Shown here: positions 2 through 11,633 of the stretch, piece after piece
How positions within the stretch are numbered: position 1 is the stretch's first letter
How the letters are laid out: each line of letters starts with the position of its first letter
Assembly: GCF_003337435.1 (NCBI RefSeq)
Contig: NZ_QPJS01000001.1
Coordinates: 140,513 to 204,512 of the forward strand
Direction: 5' to 3'
DNA length: 64,000 nt
Origin: Schleiferia thermophila
GTDB taxonomy: Bacteria; Bacteroidota; Bacteroidia; Flavobacteriales; Schleiferiaceae
Notes under the pieces: generated by a model
Told to the model about the DNA's origin: nothing
The model's input: the letters and a program-made list of their open reading frames with translations, nothing else
Database searches by the model: none
Position numbers and translations under genes: made by a program

Positions 2-248
2 TACGCCCGATCTGCAAGGGGAATAGGAGCCGCAGACCGGCCCCCGGCTGCCCGCTGGAAGCAGCCGGGGGAGGCGCCCAAAAGAAAAAATTATACTTGT
101 GTGATTTTGAGGGTGTTGGTCATTCCTTTTTCATAAATGGGCATGCTGGCGATTTGGATGATGAAGTCTCCGCGGTTGAGCAGGCCGTTGTCGAGGCAGA
201 TTTGGGCAATGTCGGCAAAGGATTCGTCGGTGGTGGTCATTTTGTCGT
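2..248. repeat. Left copy of 247-bp direct repeat (pyk 3' end plus downstream hairpin)
   Basis: Bases 2-248 match 4060-4306 with only two differences that I can see, at 136/4194 and 204/4262. The copy covers the last 51 codons of pyk, its stop codon and about 89 bases of downstream flank including an 11-bp GC hairpin (41-51 with 61-71). Identity stops sharply at base 248 inside the helicase reading frame. On the left it stops at base 2, one base from the window edge, so the true left boundary is unknown. One difference is silent and the other changes Lys to Gln. The repeat could be the scar of an insertion at the pyk 3' end, a local duplication or an assembly join. Confidence 0.93.
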
Positions 249-2943
249 CTAATTCAGTGCCCACCACTGTCATCAGAGCCATACGGTTTTCAACCCTTGA
301 TTTCAGGTTAAGATAATCTTCGTAGTTTTTGCCCGGCCAAAAGTTGATGCCGCGAATGGTTTTGTTGGGCGAGCCAATACGGTCAATACGTCCCATTCGC
401 TGAATTAAGCGTACCGGATTCCAATGTATATCGTAGTTTACAACGGTGTCGCAATCTTGTAAGTTTTGTCCTTCACTTAAACAGTCGGTTGCAATTAAAA
501 CATCAATTGGGTTATCAATTTTGTATTGAGTGTCTTTGTCGTGCTGCTTGATGATTTCCAGCCATTTTTTATATGGCACTTTCCATTTATCAGCTTCTCG
601 GTAATCATCTGAAAGGTTGATTTTTTCATACAAGTCAGACCAATCTTTTTCATTGTAAAGCTTGGTAAAAGGAGCAAATCGTTCCAAAATGGGTTCAAAC
701 TTGTCGCCTGAATAGCCATCAAAAGTTTCGCTGATAGAACCTGAAACAAAAGCTACATTAGGAATGCCTCTTTTCTTTAGTTCATCGTATAGAAATTTAG
801 CAGTGTCCTTAAACACGGTAAATACCAGCACTTTCTTATTATCAGATTTCTTTTGCTTGTTGGTGATGTGTTCGATGAGTTTATTGAGTTTTTCATCTTG
901 AGCCTTTTTAGCGTTGAAATCGGCTTCATATTTATCCAAACTTGTTTTTAGTTTAGATAGCTTTTTGATGTCGGCTTCTAAATGCCTTTTGAATAGGTCT
1001 ATTTGCGTAATGGCAGAAAGTGGAATTGGTTGTTTTTTGCCCAGTGTGATGGGTTCTTCTGTTTCACTATTTATTTCGGCTGCTGTTTCGTCAATTTCTT
1101 CTTGCTCTTCTTCGGTCAAATCGTCTTCTATAACACTATCGGTTTTGCTTTGAATATATTGATTGATTTTATTCAGCGCGTTGATGTGATGATTCAAAAT
1201 ATTTTCAACCGTGCTTTTAAATGAAAACCAACTTGATTCCAATCGTTTTATCAAAAGGATATACATCATCTTAACGAGGAACTTTTGGCGTTGCTTTTCA
1301 TCTTCCAGCACACTCTTAGGTTGAATATCTTTGATATAATCTGCGGGTCGGTATGCTGTTAAGTTTACAGAAATAGCGCTCAATATGTCGTCAAATGATT
1401 TCAGGTCGCCAATGTTTTCGGGTGTTATAAACTCATTGATAGGGTTTTCTTTTTTCGGGAAATTCATTTCACCAAATTCGCCTTCAATCAGTTTTCGGGT
1501 TCTTGCTACAATTAAAGCATCTGTGAGCTTTTCAAACTTTTTTGGAAGCTTGGCAATAAAGTCAGCAATTTTTCTGTCGTCAAGGTTAGCCCATTCGCTA
1601 AAATCTTTTTGAGCGGTCTTAAAAATATTTTCAAGGCTTTCAATTTCTAAATCGGTTTGTTTAAATCCATCGTCAAGTCCTTTGGTCATCAGTTTAAACT
1701 GATTGCGAATGTCCATCAGTTTGTTGTTGATTGGCGTTGCCGAAAGATGCATTACTTTTACGTCTCTGCTTTTGTTTTCGGGCAACAATATTTCATTAAT
1801 GAGGAATTTGTATCGAGAAGATTTGTCGTTACGCAGGTTGTGGCTTTCGTCAATTACAATGAGCAACTTTGGTCTTGTCTTGAAGTAACGTAGTGTTTTG
1901 TCGTTGTAGCAGTCAAAACGACCTTCCTGCAAGTCGGTGTGATAGCGGATATAAAAATCAATTTCGTCTTTTTCAAAACGGCTTTGCTGCCCGATTTTGT
2001 ATTGCTGCCAGTTGTTTGCGAGCTTTTTAGGACAAAGCAATAAAACCGTGTAGCCTTTCAGTTCAAAGTATTTCATCACGGCCAAGGCGGTCCATGTTTT
2101 TCCTAAGCCAACGGCATCGGCTAAAATGGCTCCATTATACTTTTGGAGCATTTTAATTAAACTGATTGCTCCTTTTTGTTGATAGGGGAAAAGCGATTTG
2201 TAAATAACAGTTTCTTCTAAATGAGCTATTTCACGTTTGAATTCGGCATCACCCGAAAGTTCCATTATGTCGTCCTTAAACATTTCGTAAAGGACTTTGA
2301 AATACAAGTCGTGTGGTGTGTATTCTTTGTAGAGTTTTTTTATTAGTTCAATGATGTATTGTTTAACTTCTATCTGGTTTTTGTTGGGCAATTCGATAAT
2401 TTCCGATGCCACTTTTTCCCATTGCTCCTGAAACCACTTTTTTAAGTTTTTAAATTCGTCTTCATAATCGTGTTTGGCAATGTTTAATTCAATGTTTGAA
2501 CTGTCTTTAATTCCGAGTCCGGCATCTGTCAAGTTAGAGCTTCCAACAATGAAATAGTTTTTGGTTTTAGTTTTATCGGTGTAGAGATAGGTTTTTGCGT
2601 GGCAAAAATTCTTCTGAATGTTTTTTACAGATACTTTGTCCTGTTGCAGAAAGGCAACGGCTTTTTGAGCCGATGTGCTTAATGAAAGTGTCGAGCTAAT
2701 GCCGGTGTCGCCATTTAGCAAGTCAATCACTTTGTTGATTTGTGATTCTTCTTGCATAAGATTGCCCAAAATCAGTCGGAATTTTTCCACTGAATTGATG
2801 TGGTCTTTCATTAAGGCCAAAGCGTTTATTGTAAAGTATCCGGTGACAAGGTCAAGCGAACCGTTTTCGGTGTTTGCTTTTATGAAGTCGAACACTTTGT
2901 AGTGTTCATTGTCGTCTGTTTTTGTTTTGTTATCTAATAGCAT
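91..2943 (-). CDS. PLD-domain SNF2-type DEAD/DEAH helicase, C-terminus replaced by pyruvate kinase tail
   Basis: The 950-residue protein starts with a phospholipase D-like domain (HAK at 115-117, GSSNLT at about 134-139). A superfamily 2 helicase core follows: Walker A DAVGLGKT at 276-283, DESH at 365-368, SATP at 401-404, and motifs V/VI near 840-885 (SEGQNLQ, QRMGRIDRIG). Helicases of this build remodel or translocate on nucleic acid and often occur with restriction or phage-defence genes; a defence role here is inference. Residues 900-950 are not helicase sequence: they match the last 51 residues of the pyruvate kinase encoded at 4149-5570, with one substitution. The original C-terminal region therefore seems lost, and translation ends at the copied pyk stop. 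The ATG at 2943 gives a full PLD domain. No partner methylase or nuclease gene is visible. Confidence 0.88.
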   Translation of the reverse strand: MLLDNKTKTDDNEHYKVFDFIKANTENGSLDLVTGYFTINALALMKDHINSVEKFRLILGNLMQEESQINKVIDLLNGDTGISSTLSLSTSAQKAVAFLQQDKVSVKNIQKNFCHAKTYLYTDKTKTKNYFIVGSSNLTDAGLGIKDSSNIELNIAKHDYEDEFKNLKKWFQEQWEKVASEIIELPNKNQIEVKQYIIELIKKLYKEYTPHDLYFKVLYEMFKDDIMELSGDAEFKREIAHLEETVIYKSLFPYQQKGAISLIKMLQKYNGAILADAVGLGKTWTALAVMKYFELKGYTVLLLCPKKLANNWQQYKIGQQSRFEKDEIDFYIRYHTDLQEGRFDCYNDKTLRYFKTRPKLLIVIDESHNLRNDKSSRYKFLINEILLPENKSRDVKVMHLSATPINNKLMDIRNQFKLMTKGLDDGFKQTDLEIESLENIFKTAQKDFSEWANLDDRKIADFIAKLPKKFEKLTDALIVARTRKLIEGEFGEMNFPKKENPINEFITPENIGDLKSFDDILSAISVNLTAYRPADYIKDIQPKSVLEDEKQRQKFLVKMMYILLIKRLESSWFSFKSTVENILNHHINALNKINQYIQSKTDSVIEDDLTEEEQEEIDETAAEINSETEEPITLGKKQPIPLSAITQIDLFKRHLEADIKKLSKLKTSLDKYEADFNAKKAQDEKLNKLIEHITNKQKKSDNKKVLVFTVFKDTAKFLYDELKKRGIPNVAFVSGSISETFDGYSGDKFEPILERFAPFTKLYNEKDWSDLYEKINLSDDYREADKWKVPYKKWLEIIKQHDKDTQYKIDNPIDVLIATDCLSEGQNLQDCDTVVNYDIHWNPVRLIQRMGRIDRIGSPNKTIRGINFWPGKNYEDYLNLKSRVENRMALMTVVGTELDDKMTTTDESFADIAQICLDNGLLNRGDFIIQIASMPIYEKGMTNTLKITQV

Positions 2944-4059
2944 TTTAATATCAAGAATTTGGCTCGTGAATATCGCAAATTATCATTACATGTTGGCAAA
3001 AAAGTGGCTCTTTGGCCTTTGCCTGAGGAGTTGGATTGTGTGGTGGTTGCACGAGCCAATGTACCATTTGCGGGCTGGCATAAAACTGAATAGAAGAAAG
3101 TGTACAATGGGAAAATATTAATACACGGAAAGGTCGGCTGTGAGCGTCGGAATTCTGGTGTTGTCAACATTTCGTTTTTCTGTTTTTTTACAAGGGGTTG
3201 CTTTTTATTTGGGTATTATCATTTACTTTTTTGGTTGTTTTCAACGTTTTGGCCTTGCGTAAGGGAGGGTTTGGGGGGTCAAAATTGTCAATTTGCTTTG
3301 TGCTGCTGTAGCAATGCAACGTTGGGGTGTGGGCGTATCCTGTGGGTCAGTCGGCGTGTGGTGGTTTTGTTCTGTTTTATTGTCGACCCTTTGGTGCTGT
3401 TTTTTCTGGTCTTGTGTTCATTGAAATGGTTTCGGGATTCTGTGCCATATACCGGCACAGTGGTGCATATCTCCAGATGGTTCTGCAAGTAGTTTTCGCC
3501 GACAGGATGTTTTCATCAGTTTATGAAAAAAGAGTTGTTTTTTATGTCTGGCCTTATGGACGGGTGTCTTGTGGAAAAAATTGTATGATTTGCCTGTCTA
3601 TGGAGCGAATCTTTCGGTTTGAGGATGGTATTTACTTTCTGGATTTTGGGACTTTGAAATTTTTATTTTTTATGGCGATGATGGCAAAAAATGTCGGCCG
3701 TACTGAGGAGTGGCGAGTTCTTTGGGGCCTTGCATTTTACTTTGCTTACAAGAAAAATATTTTCAATTTAGACTTATTGAATTGTGGCTAATAGTGCAAA
3801 GGAGCGGTGTACGATTGGTGATAAGGGTTTGTGACGGGTTGAGTGGAGGAGTTTTTTGTGAATGTACTCCAAATGGGGGGTTTTCGGGTTGCGGAACGGG
3901 GAGCAGATTTGTGAGGGTTGATTTTTTTGGGTTAGATGGGTGGTTGCTGCGGTGGGGTGAATGCGCCAGGGCGGAGGCGGATATGAGCCGCAGCAGGCGG
4001 GCAGAGTAGCCTCCGTGCGAGGAGGCGGAGCGACAGCGAGCCACCGCAGCGCGAGAGGC
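2944..4059. other. GT-rich stretch without a convincing gene
   Basis: About 1.1 kb between the helicase start and the repeat beside pyk. From about 3170 to 3960 the plus strand is strongly enriched in G and T. The reading frames there give Phe/Val/Gly/Cys-rich proteins with no motif I recognise, so I do not call genes. The first 130 bases hold inverted repeats and the last 100 bases belong to a GC-rich hairpin element; both are listed separately. The stretch may be decayed accessory DNA. Confidence 0.6.
2959..3083. repeat. Imperfect inverted-repeat element upstream of the helicase
   Basis: The arm TTGGCTCGTG at 2959-2968 is complementary to CACGAGCCAA at 3050-3059. A second pair, TCGCAAAT at 2973-2980 and ATTTGCGG at 3066-3073, is nearly complementary but crosses the first, so this is not one simple hairpin. 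GGCAAA near 2995 can also pair with TTTGCC at 3018-3023. The size and pattern recall the intergenic repeats seen around accessory genes in Bacteroidota and, loosely, integron attC sites. I could not find a proper attC core site (GTTRRRY), so the identity stays open. Confidence 0.4.
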
Positions 4060-4135
4060 TACGCCCGATCTGCAAGGGGAATAGGAGCCGCAGACCGGCC
4101 CCCGGCTGCCCGCTGGAAGCAGCCGGGGGAGGCGC
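3963..4135. repeat. GC-rich multi-hairpin element downstream of pyk
   Basis: This compact GC-rich block sits in AT-richer DNA. Complementary arms visible by eye are GCGCC 3963-3967 with GGCGC 4131-4135 (closing pair), GCGG 3977-3980 with CCGC 3988-3991, GTAGCCTC 4006-4013 with GAGGCTAC 4055-4062, TCTGC 4069-4073 with GCAGA 4090-4094, and an 11-bp stem 4099-4109 with 4119-4129. This gives a multibranched fold that could be a structured RNA, a REP-like mobile repeat or an unusual terminator for pyk. Its right part (4060-4135) is also present at 2-77. No T-run follows the last stem on either strand. Confidence 0.55.
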
Positions 4136-4306
4136 CCAAAAGAAAAAATTATACTTGTGTGATTTTGAGGGTGTTGGTCATTCCTTTTTCATAGATGGGC
4201 ATGCTGGCGATTTGGATGATGAAGTCTCCGCGGTTGAGCAGGCCGTTGTCGAGGCAGATTTTGGCAATGTCGGCAAAGGATTCGTCGGTGGTGGTCATTT
4301 TGTCGT
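4060..4306. repeat. Right copy of the 247-bp direct repeat, at the native pyk 3' end
   Basis: This is the partner of 2-248. It is the native location, because the 51 residues encoded here continue the pyruvate kinase fold without a break and end with the usual pyruvate kinase C-terminal pattern (GDFII...ASMPI.EKG.TNT.K). The two copies are 4,058 bases apart and in the same orientation, so recombination between them would remove one 4.06-kb unit carrying the helicase. Confidence 0.93.
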
Positions 4307-5570
4307 AGTAAAAGGCTTTGACACCCCAGACGAGGCTGAGTTGTGTGAGGATGTCGCGGTTTGCGGTAAAGACGAGGATGTAGGAGTCGGGTCGGTGGGA
4401 GGATATTTTGAAGGCTGTGTATCCGGAGTGCGTCATGGTGAGGATGCCCATGGCGCCGATTTGGTTGGAGATTTTGGAGGCGTTGTAGCAGATGGAGTCG
4501 GTGATAAAGCGTACGGAGTGATAGGTGGGGATGCTGTGTTCGAGCTGAGGGCGGAGGGTTGAGTCTTCTACGTGTTTGATGATTTTGGCCATGGCTTCGA
4601 TGACCTGAACGGGGTATTTGCCTACGGAGGTTTCGCCGGATAGCATGACGGCGTCGGCTCCGTCGAGCACGGAGTTGGCTACGTCGTTGACTTCGGCGCG
4701 GGTGGGGGTGAGGCTGTTGATCATGGATTCCATCATTTGGGTGGCGATGATGACGGGTTTGGCTTTGGCGAGGGCTTTTTTGACGATGAGCTTCTGGATG
4801 AGGGGGACGCCTTGCATGGGGACTTCGACTCCGAGGTCGCCACGGGCTACCATGAGGGCGTCGGTTTGGTCGATGATGTTGTCGATATCGACTATGGCTT
4901 CGGGTTTTTCGATTTTGGAGACGATGCGGGCGTGGCTTTTGTTGTGGTCGATGATACGGCGCAGCTCTGCGACATCGGTGGCTGAGCGTACGAAGGAGAG
5001 TCCGATCCAGTCAACTTTTTCGTCGAGGGCTACTTTGAGGTCTTCGAGGTCTTTTTCGGTCAGACAGGGCAGGGATATTTTGGTGGAAGGCAGGTTGACG
5101 CCTTTTTTTGATTTGAGGGGTCCGCCCTGGATGACGCGGGCTTTGACTTCGTCGATTTTGTTGGTATCGATGACTTCGAGGATGAGTTTTCCGTCGTCGA
5201 GGAGTATTTTTTCGCCCAGTCGGACGTCTTGCGGAAATTGTTTGTAGGTCATGTAGACGCGTTGGGCGTTGCCTACGCAGTAGTGGTTTGTGAAGGTAAG
5301 GGTGTCGCCGGGTTGTAGTTCTATGCCTTCTTCTACTTCTCCGATTCTGAGTTTGGGGCCCTGGAGGTCGGCGAGGGTGGATATGTGGAGGTTGTGTTTT
5401 TGGTTGAGTTCTTTGACGAGTCGGATGTAGTGGCGAGTGTCTTCGGGCTTGCCATGGGAGCAGTTGATGCGAAAGACACTGACGCCGGCTTTTGCCATCT
5501 GGAGCATGATGTCGGGCTGAGCGCTGGAGGGTCCGAGGGTGGCTACGATTTTGGTTTTGTTGAAGTGCAT
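4149..5570 (-). CDS. pyk: Pyruvate kinase
   Basis: This enzyme converts phosphoenolpyruvate and ADP to pyruvate and ATP, the last step of glycolysis, in the cytoplasm. The 473 residues are the normal bacterial length. The N-terminal KTKIVATLGPSS motif, the active-site segment SKIEKPEA at about 218-225, ARGDLG at 242-247, ATQMMESM near 276 and MLSGET at 309-314 are all present, followed by the C-terminal alpha/beta domain. It is the last gene of the acpP-fabF-rnc-IPExxxVDY-pyk series, with a 58-bp gap after the preceding gene that contains its own -7 promoter box. The final 51 codons plus 3' flank are duplicated at the end of the helicase gene, while this copy is complete. Confidence 0.98.
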   Translation of the reverse strand: MHFNKTKIVATLGPSSAQPDIMLQMAKAGVSVFRINCSHGKPEDTRHYIRLVKELNQKHNLHISTLADLQGPKLRIGEVEEGIELQPGDTLTFTNHYCVGNAQRVYMTYKQFPQDVRLGEKILLDDGKLILEVIDTNKIDEVKARVIQGGPLKSKKGVNLPSTKISLPCLTEKDLEDLKVALDEKVDWIGLSFVRSATDVAELRRIIDHNKSHARIVSKIEKPEAIVDIDNIIDQTDALMVARGDLGVEVPMQGVPLIQKLIVKKALAKAKPVIIATQMMESMINSLTPTRAEVNDVANSVLDGADAVMLSGETSVGKYPVQVIEAMAKIIKHVEDSTLRPQLEHSIPTYHSVRFITDSICYNASKISNQIGAMGILTMTHSGYTAFKISSHRPDSYILVFTANRDILTQLSLVWGVKAFYYDKMTTTDESFADIAKICLDNGLLNRGDFIIQIASMPIYEKGMTNTLKITQV

Positions 5571-9496: not shown

Positions 9497-10997
9497 TCAG
9501 TTGAGAAGATTGTCTGTTCGCTGGTCAATGTTTCGGGTCGAAGTAGTGTGGCGGGCAAGTATTCTTTGGCTTTCTTTTACTACAGCGGGCCATTTTTGTG
9601 CCTGGTGCAGAAGTTCCTGGGCCTTCTTGTACGCAATCCCAAGGTCGAGTATAGGTTTTGGGTAGTCTGCGCCATATTTAAAATTGTACAGCATTTCATC
9701 CATGGGCATGGTTTTCCATGGCTCAATGGCCAGCGGAGCTGGAAGCTCAGCCAGTTCAGGTACCCATTTTTTTATAAATGCAGCCTTAGGGTCGTGGTCC
9801 AGAGCTTGTTTTACAGGATTGTATATGCGTATGGTATTGATACCCGTCACTCCGGCCTGCATCTGAAACTGCGGATAGTGAATGCCGGGTTCGAAGTCGA
9901 TAAATTGTCTGGCCAAATGATGGACACCCTCTCTCCAATCGTGGAGCATGTAGTGGCAAAAAAAGGATACCAGCATGGCCCGCATTCTAAAATTGAGATA
10001 ACCAGTCTGGTTAAGACAGCGCATGCATGCATCTACCAATGGGATACCGGTGGTGCCTTCCATCCATGCTTTGATATGAGAAGGGTTGCTTTGGTAAGGG
10101 AAATCGAGATATCCTCTGTTAACGGGTTCAAATTCCATCCTGTCTTCGGATTCGAACTTTTGAATAAAGTGGCAATGCCAATGCAGCCGGCTGATAAATG
10201 CCCGCAGCGGAAATTTGACAGTGTCTTCGGATTGGTACTTTTTGATGGCAAGTTGATAGACTCTTCGCAAACTTACACATCCCCACGCTATGTAGGCCGA
10301 AAGACGGCTACAGCTTTGTCTGCTCTCTTCCGGTTTTGAAATATGTCTGCTGTAGGACGTGTAGCGACTTTGCAGAAGGGATTCCAACTGAAACAAAGCC
10401 TGCGACTCCCCCGGTGATTGAAACTGTGAGGAATATGCTGTCCAGCTTTTTATCAAATGTTCAGGTAGAGAGAATGGATTTTCGAAATTTACCCAGCCGC
10501 CATCGTATGTGGAAAGTCCGGGATCTTCTTCTGGTTTGTGCATAAACTCCTTCCATTTCCTGTCCCAGTCTTTGCGGTGGGTAAGGCCTCTGATGACGCC
10601 AAATTGCCTGTACTCTTGCCAATGAATACCCTTATGACGAAAAAAATCTTTCAATAGAAGATCTCGCTGATATGTTAACTGTACACCGGTCTCCTGATGC
10701 GAATGGACAGAAACTATAGCCAAATTCTCCGAAAGATGTGCAAAAATCTCTCGACAATCGCCAAAGCATAGTTCACACCGGATGCCAGCGGCCATCAGCT
10801 TTTGTTTTATTTCCAGTGCACTGAGAAATTCAAAGGCAAAATGCCTCTGGCTGTAGTCTGGATGCAGGATAAGATTTGGCTCGGCTATCCAAGATGACCA
10901 AAACGGTATGCTTAGAACGTATGGCCTGAGCAAGTGGTTTGTGGTCGTGAATGCGAAAATCTCTTTTCAGCCAGACTATTGAAATATGTTTTTCCAA
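9497..10997 (-). CDS. Cryptochrome/deoxyribodipyrimidine photolyase, apparently frameshifted near the N-terminus
   Basis: This flavoprotein family repairs pyrimidine dimers in light or senses blue light. The long frame ending at 9497 encodes a partial antenna domain and the complete FAD-binding domain ([47 protein letters not shown]). It has no good start: the first start-like codon, TTG at 10933, would remove the N-terminus. The missing piece, [18 protein letters not shown], a canonical photolyase beginning, is present in another frame upstream and opens with TTG at 10997. A single-base shift between about 10885 and 10925 would join them. Either the gene is disabled or the sequence has an indel error. 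msrA is divergent, starting at 11070. Confidence 0.85.
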
Positions 10998-11069
10998 TCA
11001 AGCGTTTTTACATTCACATACTCAAACCAATGCAGGTGCACACCTGTTTAGAAAAAACAAAAAAAGACA

Positions 11070-11633
11070 ATGGCTGTTATGCGGAATGTTTTTCTGATGA
11101 TTTTTGCGGCAATTCATATGGTAAGTGGACAGAAAATGAATGACGACAAATACCAGAGAGCCATCCTGGCGTCAGGTTGCTTTTGGGGCACGGAGTATCA
11201 CCTGAAGCGGATTCCCGGAGTGATCAGCACACGCTGCGGATATACCGGCGGACATGTGCCCAATCCCACATACAAACAAGTATGCACAGGTACTACCGGG
11301 CATGCCGAAGCAGTAGAAGTGGTTTACGACCCTACTCAGGTAAGTTTCGAAACCATTTGCAAAGTGTTTTTTGAAACTCATGATCCCGGACAACTCAACA
11401 GACAAGGGCCCGACATCGGTCACCAGTACCGCAGCGCTGTTTTCTACTTAAACGAAGAGCAAAAGCGTATAACCGAAAAGCTAATTGCCATCCTCAGAGA
11501 GAAAGGACATAAAGTAGTAACTAAATTAACCCCGGCTGGAGAATTTTATCCGGCCGAAGACTACCATCAAAATTATTACGACACCAAAGGCACTACGCCC
11601 TATTGTCATTTTTATGTAAAAAAGTTTGATTAA
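11070..11633 (+). CDS. msrA: Peptide-methionine (S)-S-oxide reductase
   Basis: This enzyme reduces the S-epimer of methionine sulfoxide in oxidised proteins. The catalytic GCFWGTE motif, the GYTGG segment, GHAEAVEVVYDP and the THDPGQLNRQGPDIGHQYRS block are all clear. The first 22 residues (MRNVFLMIFAAIHMVSG core) look like a signal peptide, so the enzyme may be exported. If translation starts at the internal Met at 11136, the protein would be cytoplasmic. No MsrB domain or neighbour is visible. Its position opposite the photolyase groups two damage-repair functions. Confidence 0.95.
   Translation: MAVMRNVFLMIFAAIHMVSGQKMNDDKYQRAILASGCFWGTEYHLKRIPGVISTRCGYTGGHVPNPTYKQVCTGTTGHAEAVEVVYDPTQVSFETICKVFFETHDPGQLNRQGPDIGHQYRSAVFYLNEEQKRITEKLIAILREKGHKVVTKLTPAGEFYPAEDYHQNYYDTKGTTPYCHFYVKKFD

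Follow-up and report, generated by a model that had tools for sequence, protein, structure and literature searches.

The helicase gene at the start of the analysed DNA runs in frame into a copy of the end of its neighbour, the pyruvate kinase gene pyk. We think it probable (roughly 0.75) that a recent rearrangement truncated a two-gene, restriction-like operon beside pyk, through copying at a microhomology followed by loss, leaving behind a disarmed remnant. The window, a stretch of 64,000 nucleotides of the Schleiferia thermophila genome, contains the following features:

Positions 1 to 90, no strand assigned: remainder of the copied segment (copy B), made up of the 3′ spacer and part of its repeat (REP-B), which runs on leftward beyond the window, across a scaffold gap.
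Positions 91 to 248, minus strand: copied pyk tail in frame with the helicase (codons 423-473 and the stop codon), differing from the native tail at two bases, of which one is silent and the other gives K/Q.
Positions 236 to 248, minus strand: 13-nt junction microhomology, ACGACAAAATGAC, common to pyk and, judging from the homologous locus L039, to the original helicase.
Positions 249 to 2943, minus strand: helicase-derived part with the HKD/PLD nuclease domain and SNF2 helicase core, spanning residues 1-898 plus one base (the first) of codon 899.
Positions 2944 to 3961, no strand assigned: about 1 kb from the helicase start to the repeat, its first ~146 bp similar to the sequence that precedes homologous helicases (72% in the case of L039).
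Positions 3962 to 4148, no strand assigned: copy A of the dispersed GC-rich repeat, together with the spacer, on the downstream side of native pyk; the repeat has ~25 genome copies, and those that were read show a sharp TGCGCC edge.
Positions 4149 to 5570, minus strand: native pyk, intact and the source of the tail, with Pfam PK and PK_C matches across its full length.

A helicase reading frame with a pyruvate kinase tail

The chimeric open reading frame (window 91-2943, minus strand) encodes 950 residues with no internal stop, and its Pfam matches comprise PLDc_2, SNF2-rel_dom/ResIII, Helicase_C and, at residues 883-947 and above the cut-off, PK_C. The HKD, Walker A, DESH, SAT and QRMGR motifs are all in place and residues 1-903 are 79% identical to intact homologues. 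The chimera has the HKD nuclease and SNF2 core of PLD-SNF2 helicases from two-gene operons such as L039 and L040; their conserved C-terminal region (~200-235 residues) is absent, and the pyk tail stands in its place. Chimera residues 900-950 correspond to pyk residues 423-473, Q914 against K437 being the sole difference, so that the reading frame, the PK_C match and the residue alignment all bear out the original prediction of an in-frame run into 51 residues of pyk with one Lys/Gln difference. The tail does not amount to a whole PK C-terminal domain, matching profile positions 49-113 of 114. Native pyk is 88% and 85% identical to its orthologues in two relatives. Third-position GC is 41% in the helicase and 71% in pyk, which is weakly consistent with horizontal acquisition of the helicase, given a window average of 43% GC. 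Upstream of the helicase, a 46-aa open stretch had no match in Pfam, PHROGs or NCBIfam.

The copied segment includes a dispersed repeat

The copied DNA measures 345 bp and matches its source at window 3962-4306 (copy A) with 98.8% identity, a length and identity that exclude a chance origin. That the tail was copied from the adjacent pyk had been predicted correctly, but the copy is longer than claimed, taking in, besides the pyk tail, the 3′ spacer and the whole of a dispersed GC-rich repeat of ~180 bp. Four differences separate copy B from copy A, two in the repeat and two in the tail. This low divergence (1.2%) indicates that the duplication is a recent event, as had also been proposed.

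The repeat itself (window 3962-4140; 73% GC; sharp ends TGCGCC...GGCGCCC) occurs at ~25 places in the genome, the other copies being at most 90% identical; in those that were read, the first ~25 bp hardly vary. An Rfam search with it returned no convincing family, and the relative G001 also has a 72% match to it. Copy B stops exactly at the outer edge of the repeat. Window base 1 is the first base past a 96-N scaffold gap (L003:11905-12000) and part of copy B lies to the left of the window; the length of 345 bp was obtained by joining the gap flanks at their 99-nt overlap. Both flanks contain an exact 99-mer in common, as expected from de Bruijn assembly at k=99, and the gap, which the original prediction had no means of seeing, is therefore probably spurious. 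With this gap intervening, no continuous sequence runs through to the far side of the copy; the helicase-pyk junction itself lies ~240 bp inside the contig.

The residue difference had been described as a Lys-to-Gln change. This direction is probably reversed: at the site of K437 the pyk genes of the two nearest genomes encode Gln, so that Lys is probably the derived state. Across the wider family the residue varies, with 9 Q, 4 K and others in 22 aligned sequences. Where the copies differ within the repeat, copy B is the odd one out at both positions, against 11 of 11 and 9 of 11 of the copies read.

Loss of the helicase C-terminus and probable loss of a partner methyltransferase

Homologues at 33-84% identity, about 70 in number, extend ~200-235 residues beyond the chimera breakpoint; full-length ones down to about 32% identity retain this region, most of them with a conserved ending, NFDLI.W / FELITWL. 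The original prediction had named homologues naturally ending in the same 51 residues as evidence against it, and none of the ~70 has such a PK tail. Helicases 72-79% identical are about 1126-1131 aa long, and the part that the chimera lacks comes to about 222-226 residues in the closest relatives. The helicase's own C-terminus is therefore missing as predicted, but this account of the loss was incomplete in that a downstream methyltransferase appears to have gone as well. The missing C-terminus had no match anywhere in the S. thermophila genome; as a control, a C-terminus query matched three relatives at 71-79% identity (E<1e-110).

In all seven close relatives with enough downstream DNA, the helicase is followed on its 3′ side by the methyltransferase or a homologue of it. 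The large downstream protein belongs to one family. Its gene lies 3 bp from the helicase in L039 and L040; elsewhere short gaps or a single small gene intervene. Four such proteins were scanned (L039, L045, L043 and L069) and all matched the Pfam Eco57I methyltransferase model, the first three also matching TaqI_C, which L069 did not. Residues 300-392 of the L043 methyltransferase ORF (L043:10325-13825) also match an IS200-like Y1 transposase model. The methyltransferase was found neither at the chimera locus nor elsewhere in the genome, the same search giving matches in the genomes of 9 of 40 relatives. Conserved synteny to the left of the copy was found in neither of two relatives (G001 and G019). 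G001 has a decayed helicase homologue of its own (L125:255-2884) with many stops, which likewise breaks off at about residue 886; the 12 kb read at that locus contain no methyltransferase match.

The junction lies at a 13-nt match

The joint falls exactly on a short match of 13 nt, the helicase side of which is deduced from a homologue whose protein is ~79% identical. ACGACAAAATGAC is the longest exact match between the helicase and methyltransferase operon of L039 (7 kb) and this pyk (1.4 kb), and it occurs in the L039 helicase at the corresponding codons. It aligns the two reading frames (LDDKMT / YYDKMT), which accounts for a fusion that is in frame and uses the stop codon of pyk. A junction at this position points most likely to microhomology-mediated duplication or a template switch, after which recombination at the repeat probably took place.

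In the starting state that we propose, a PLD-SNF2 helicase gene followed by an Eco57I-type methyltransferase gene would have adjoined pyk. A break or stalled fork within the helicase would then have paired with pyk at the 13-nt direct match, and the pyk tail, spacer and repeat would have been copied onto the helicase, through either a 4,058-bp tandem-duplication junction or one-ended template switching, both of which would leave the observed joint. The far side of the copy would next have been joined to unrelated DNA, probably by recombination at a common dispersed repeat, removing the helicase C-terminus and the methyltransferase. On its far side the copy ends just where the repeat has its sharp outer edge with ~25 nearly invariant bp, so the rest could have been removed by recombination with a different copy of the repeat. 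Such a crossover would have to sit near that outer edge, because copy B is 99% like copy A throughout and the repeats are divergent.

Comparison with known systems

Gene fusions at duplication joints are known from bacteria (Anderson and Roth 1978, cited in PMC11111574). Tandem duplications and illegitimate recombination at short homologies resemble the present case in the short direct match at the novel joint, in near-identical flanking copies and in the fusion of two neighbouring genes. They differ in that the fused 3′ end here comes from a housekeeping gene, and a second helicase copy and the partner gene are absent, so that further loss is needed.

Type-2 BREX-related (BR) systems have HKD-Swi2/Snf2 helicase effectors with N6-methyltransferases, and occasional loss of C-terminal domains is reported for these effectors (PMC12839542). 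The N-terminal HKD nuclease, the Swi2/Snf2 helicase and the paired N6-methyltransferase are common to them and to the family described here, but the chimera locus differs in having no methyltransferase. Neither a DUF499 ATPase nor DUF3780 was recognised among the Pfam-scanned neighbours of intact relatives (selected ORFs in ~6-kb flanks). The best PADLOC model for the helicase is C3a139 (HKD+Snf2; 1.3e-79). The DISARM models DrmD for the helicase and DrmMI for its partner are weaker matches than C3a139 is for the helicase; the helicase differs from DISARM in that its DrmD score of 142 is far below the NCBIfam cut-off of 610, and other DISARM genes were not seen.

Alternative explanations and the fate of the product

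The helicase-pyk join could be an assembly or library artefact, with a chimeric contig end formed next to a scaffold gap, as the join is only about 240 bp from the contig end, the window begins at a gap with the k=99 signature and an identical second gap lies 3.5 kb off. However, at most 13 nt are in common at the join, far under k=99, copy B has its own variants on either side of the gap (including the T at L003:12001, common to both contig ends), and the remaining contig with the helicase, repeat A and native pyk is N-free, which together make an artefact unlikely. The least probable of the alternatives is site-specific integration of a small element at the 3′ end of pyk, with copy A restored by the element and copy B representing the displaced native end. 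Although the geometry fits (an intact gene, an insert and a displaced 3′ fragment that points the same way) and copy B has an ancestral-like Gln, the ORF list of the 4-kb insert holds nothing of recombinase size other than the helicase, and the 1 kb beside the helicase shows no homology to known genes, recombinases included. A 345-bp near-identical repeat with a resident dispersed repeat inside it is, moreover, unlike an att core; two repeat positions mark copy B as derived, and its inner edge falls on the helicase microhomology.

Whether the product is a harmless remnant or a working chimera had been left open by the original prediction, and the evidence, which is indirect, favours the remnant. 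For a fused protein that is expressed and useful, with the pyk tail as a new stable end of the truncated helicase, speak the stop-free 950-aa frame, the full set of core motifs and the absence of excess changes at conserved columns: the chimera departs at 6 columns that are invariant in the others, the range among homologues 68-79% identical to it being 0-16. A recent event explains these features too, and at 4 differences per 345 bp too little time has passed for an open frame to be a sign of selection. The chimera has lost a C-terminal region that every full-length homologue examined retains, the partner methyltransferase is lost too, and the partial PK domain of the tail is modelled poorly. 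In an AF2 model, residues 880-950 all have pLDDT <50, a result that weighs little given the low overall confidence and shallow alignments. We thus hold a working chimera to be improbable, and more improbable still a stable, expressed and selected nuclease-helicase that works without the methyltransferase and has been caught soon after its birth. A recent, disarmed remnant of a restriction-like system is the most likely product, while the open, undecayed frame makes some residual function possible.

If the remnant reading is correct, the locus is a clear, recent example of how faulty repair at a 13-nt match can disarm a restriction-like defence operon; a working chimera would instead be a new enzyme fusion seen near its origin. 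In either case the in-frame chimera would pass annotation pipelines as a full protein with a PK_C domain, and domain fusions beside scaffold gaps call for a check of the junction.

The second 96-N gap (L003:8354-8449) also has an exact 99-mer common to its flanks, and both gaps sit at recent duplications. To the left of the window there is a second recent direct duplication (L003:8452-9007 and 10943-11497), made up of repeat families of 299 and 257 nt, each 100% identical, at a spacing of 2490-2491. It covers a small lipoprotein-like gene ahead of each of two related-looking proteins of ~540 aa.
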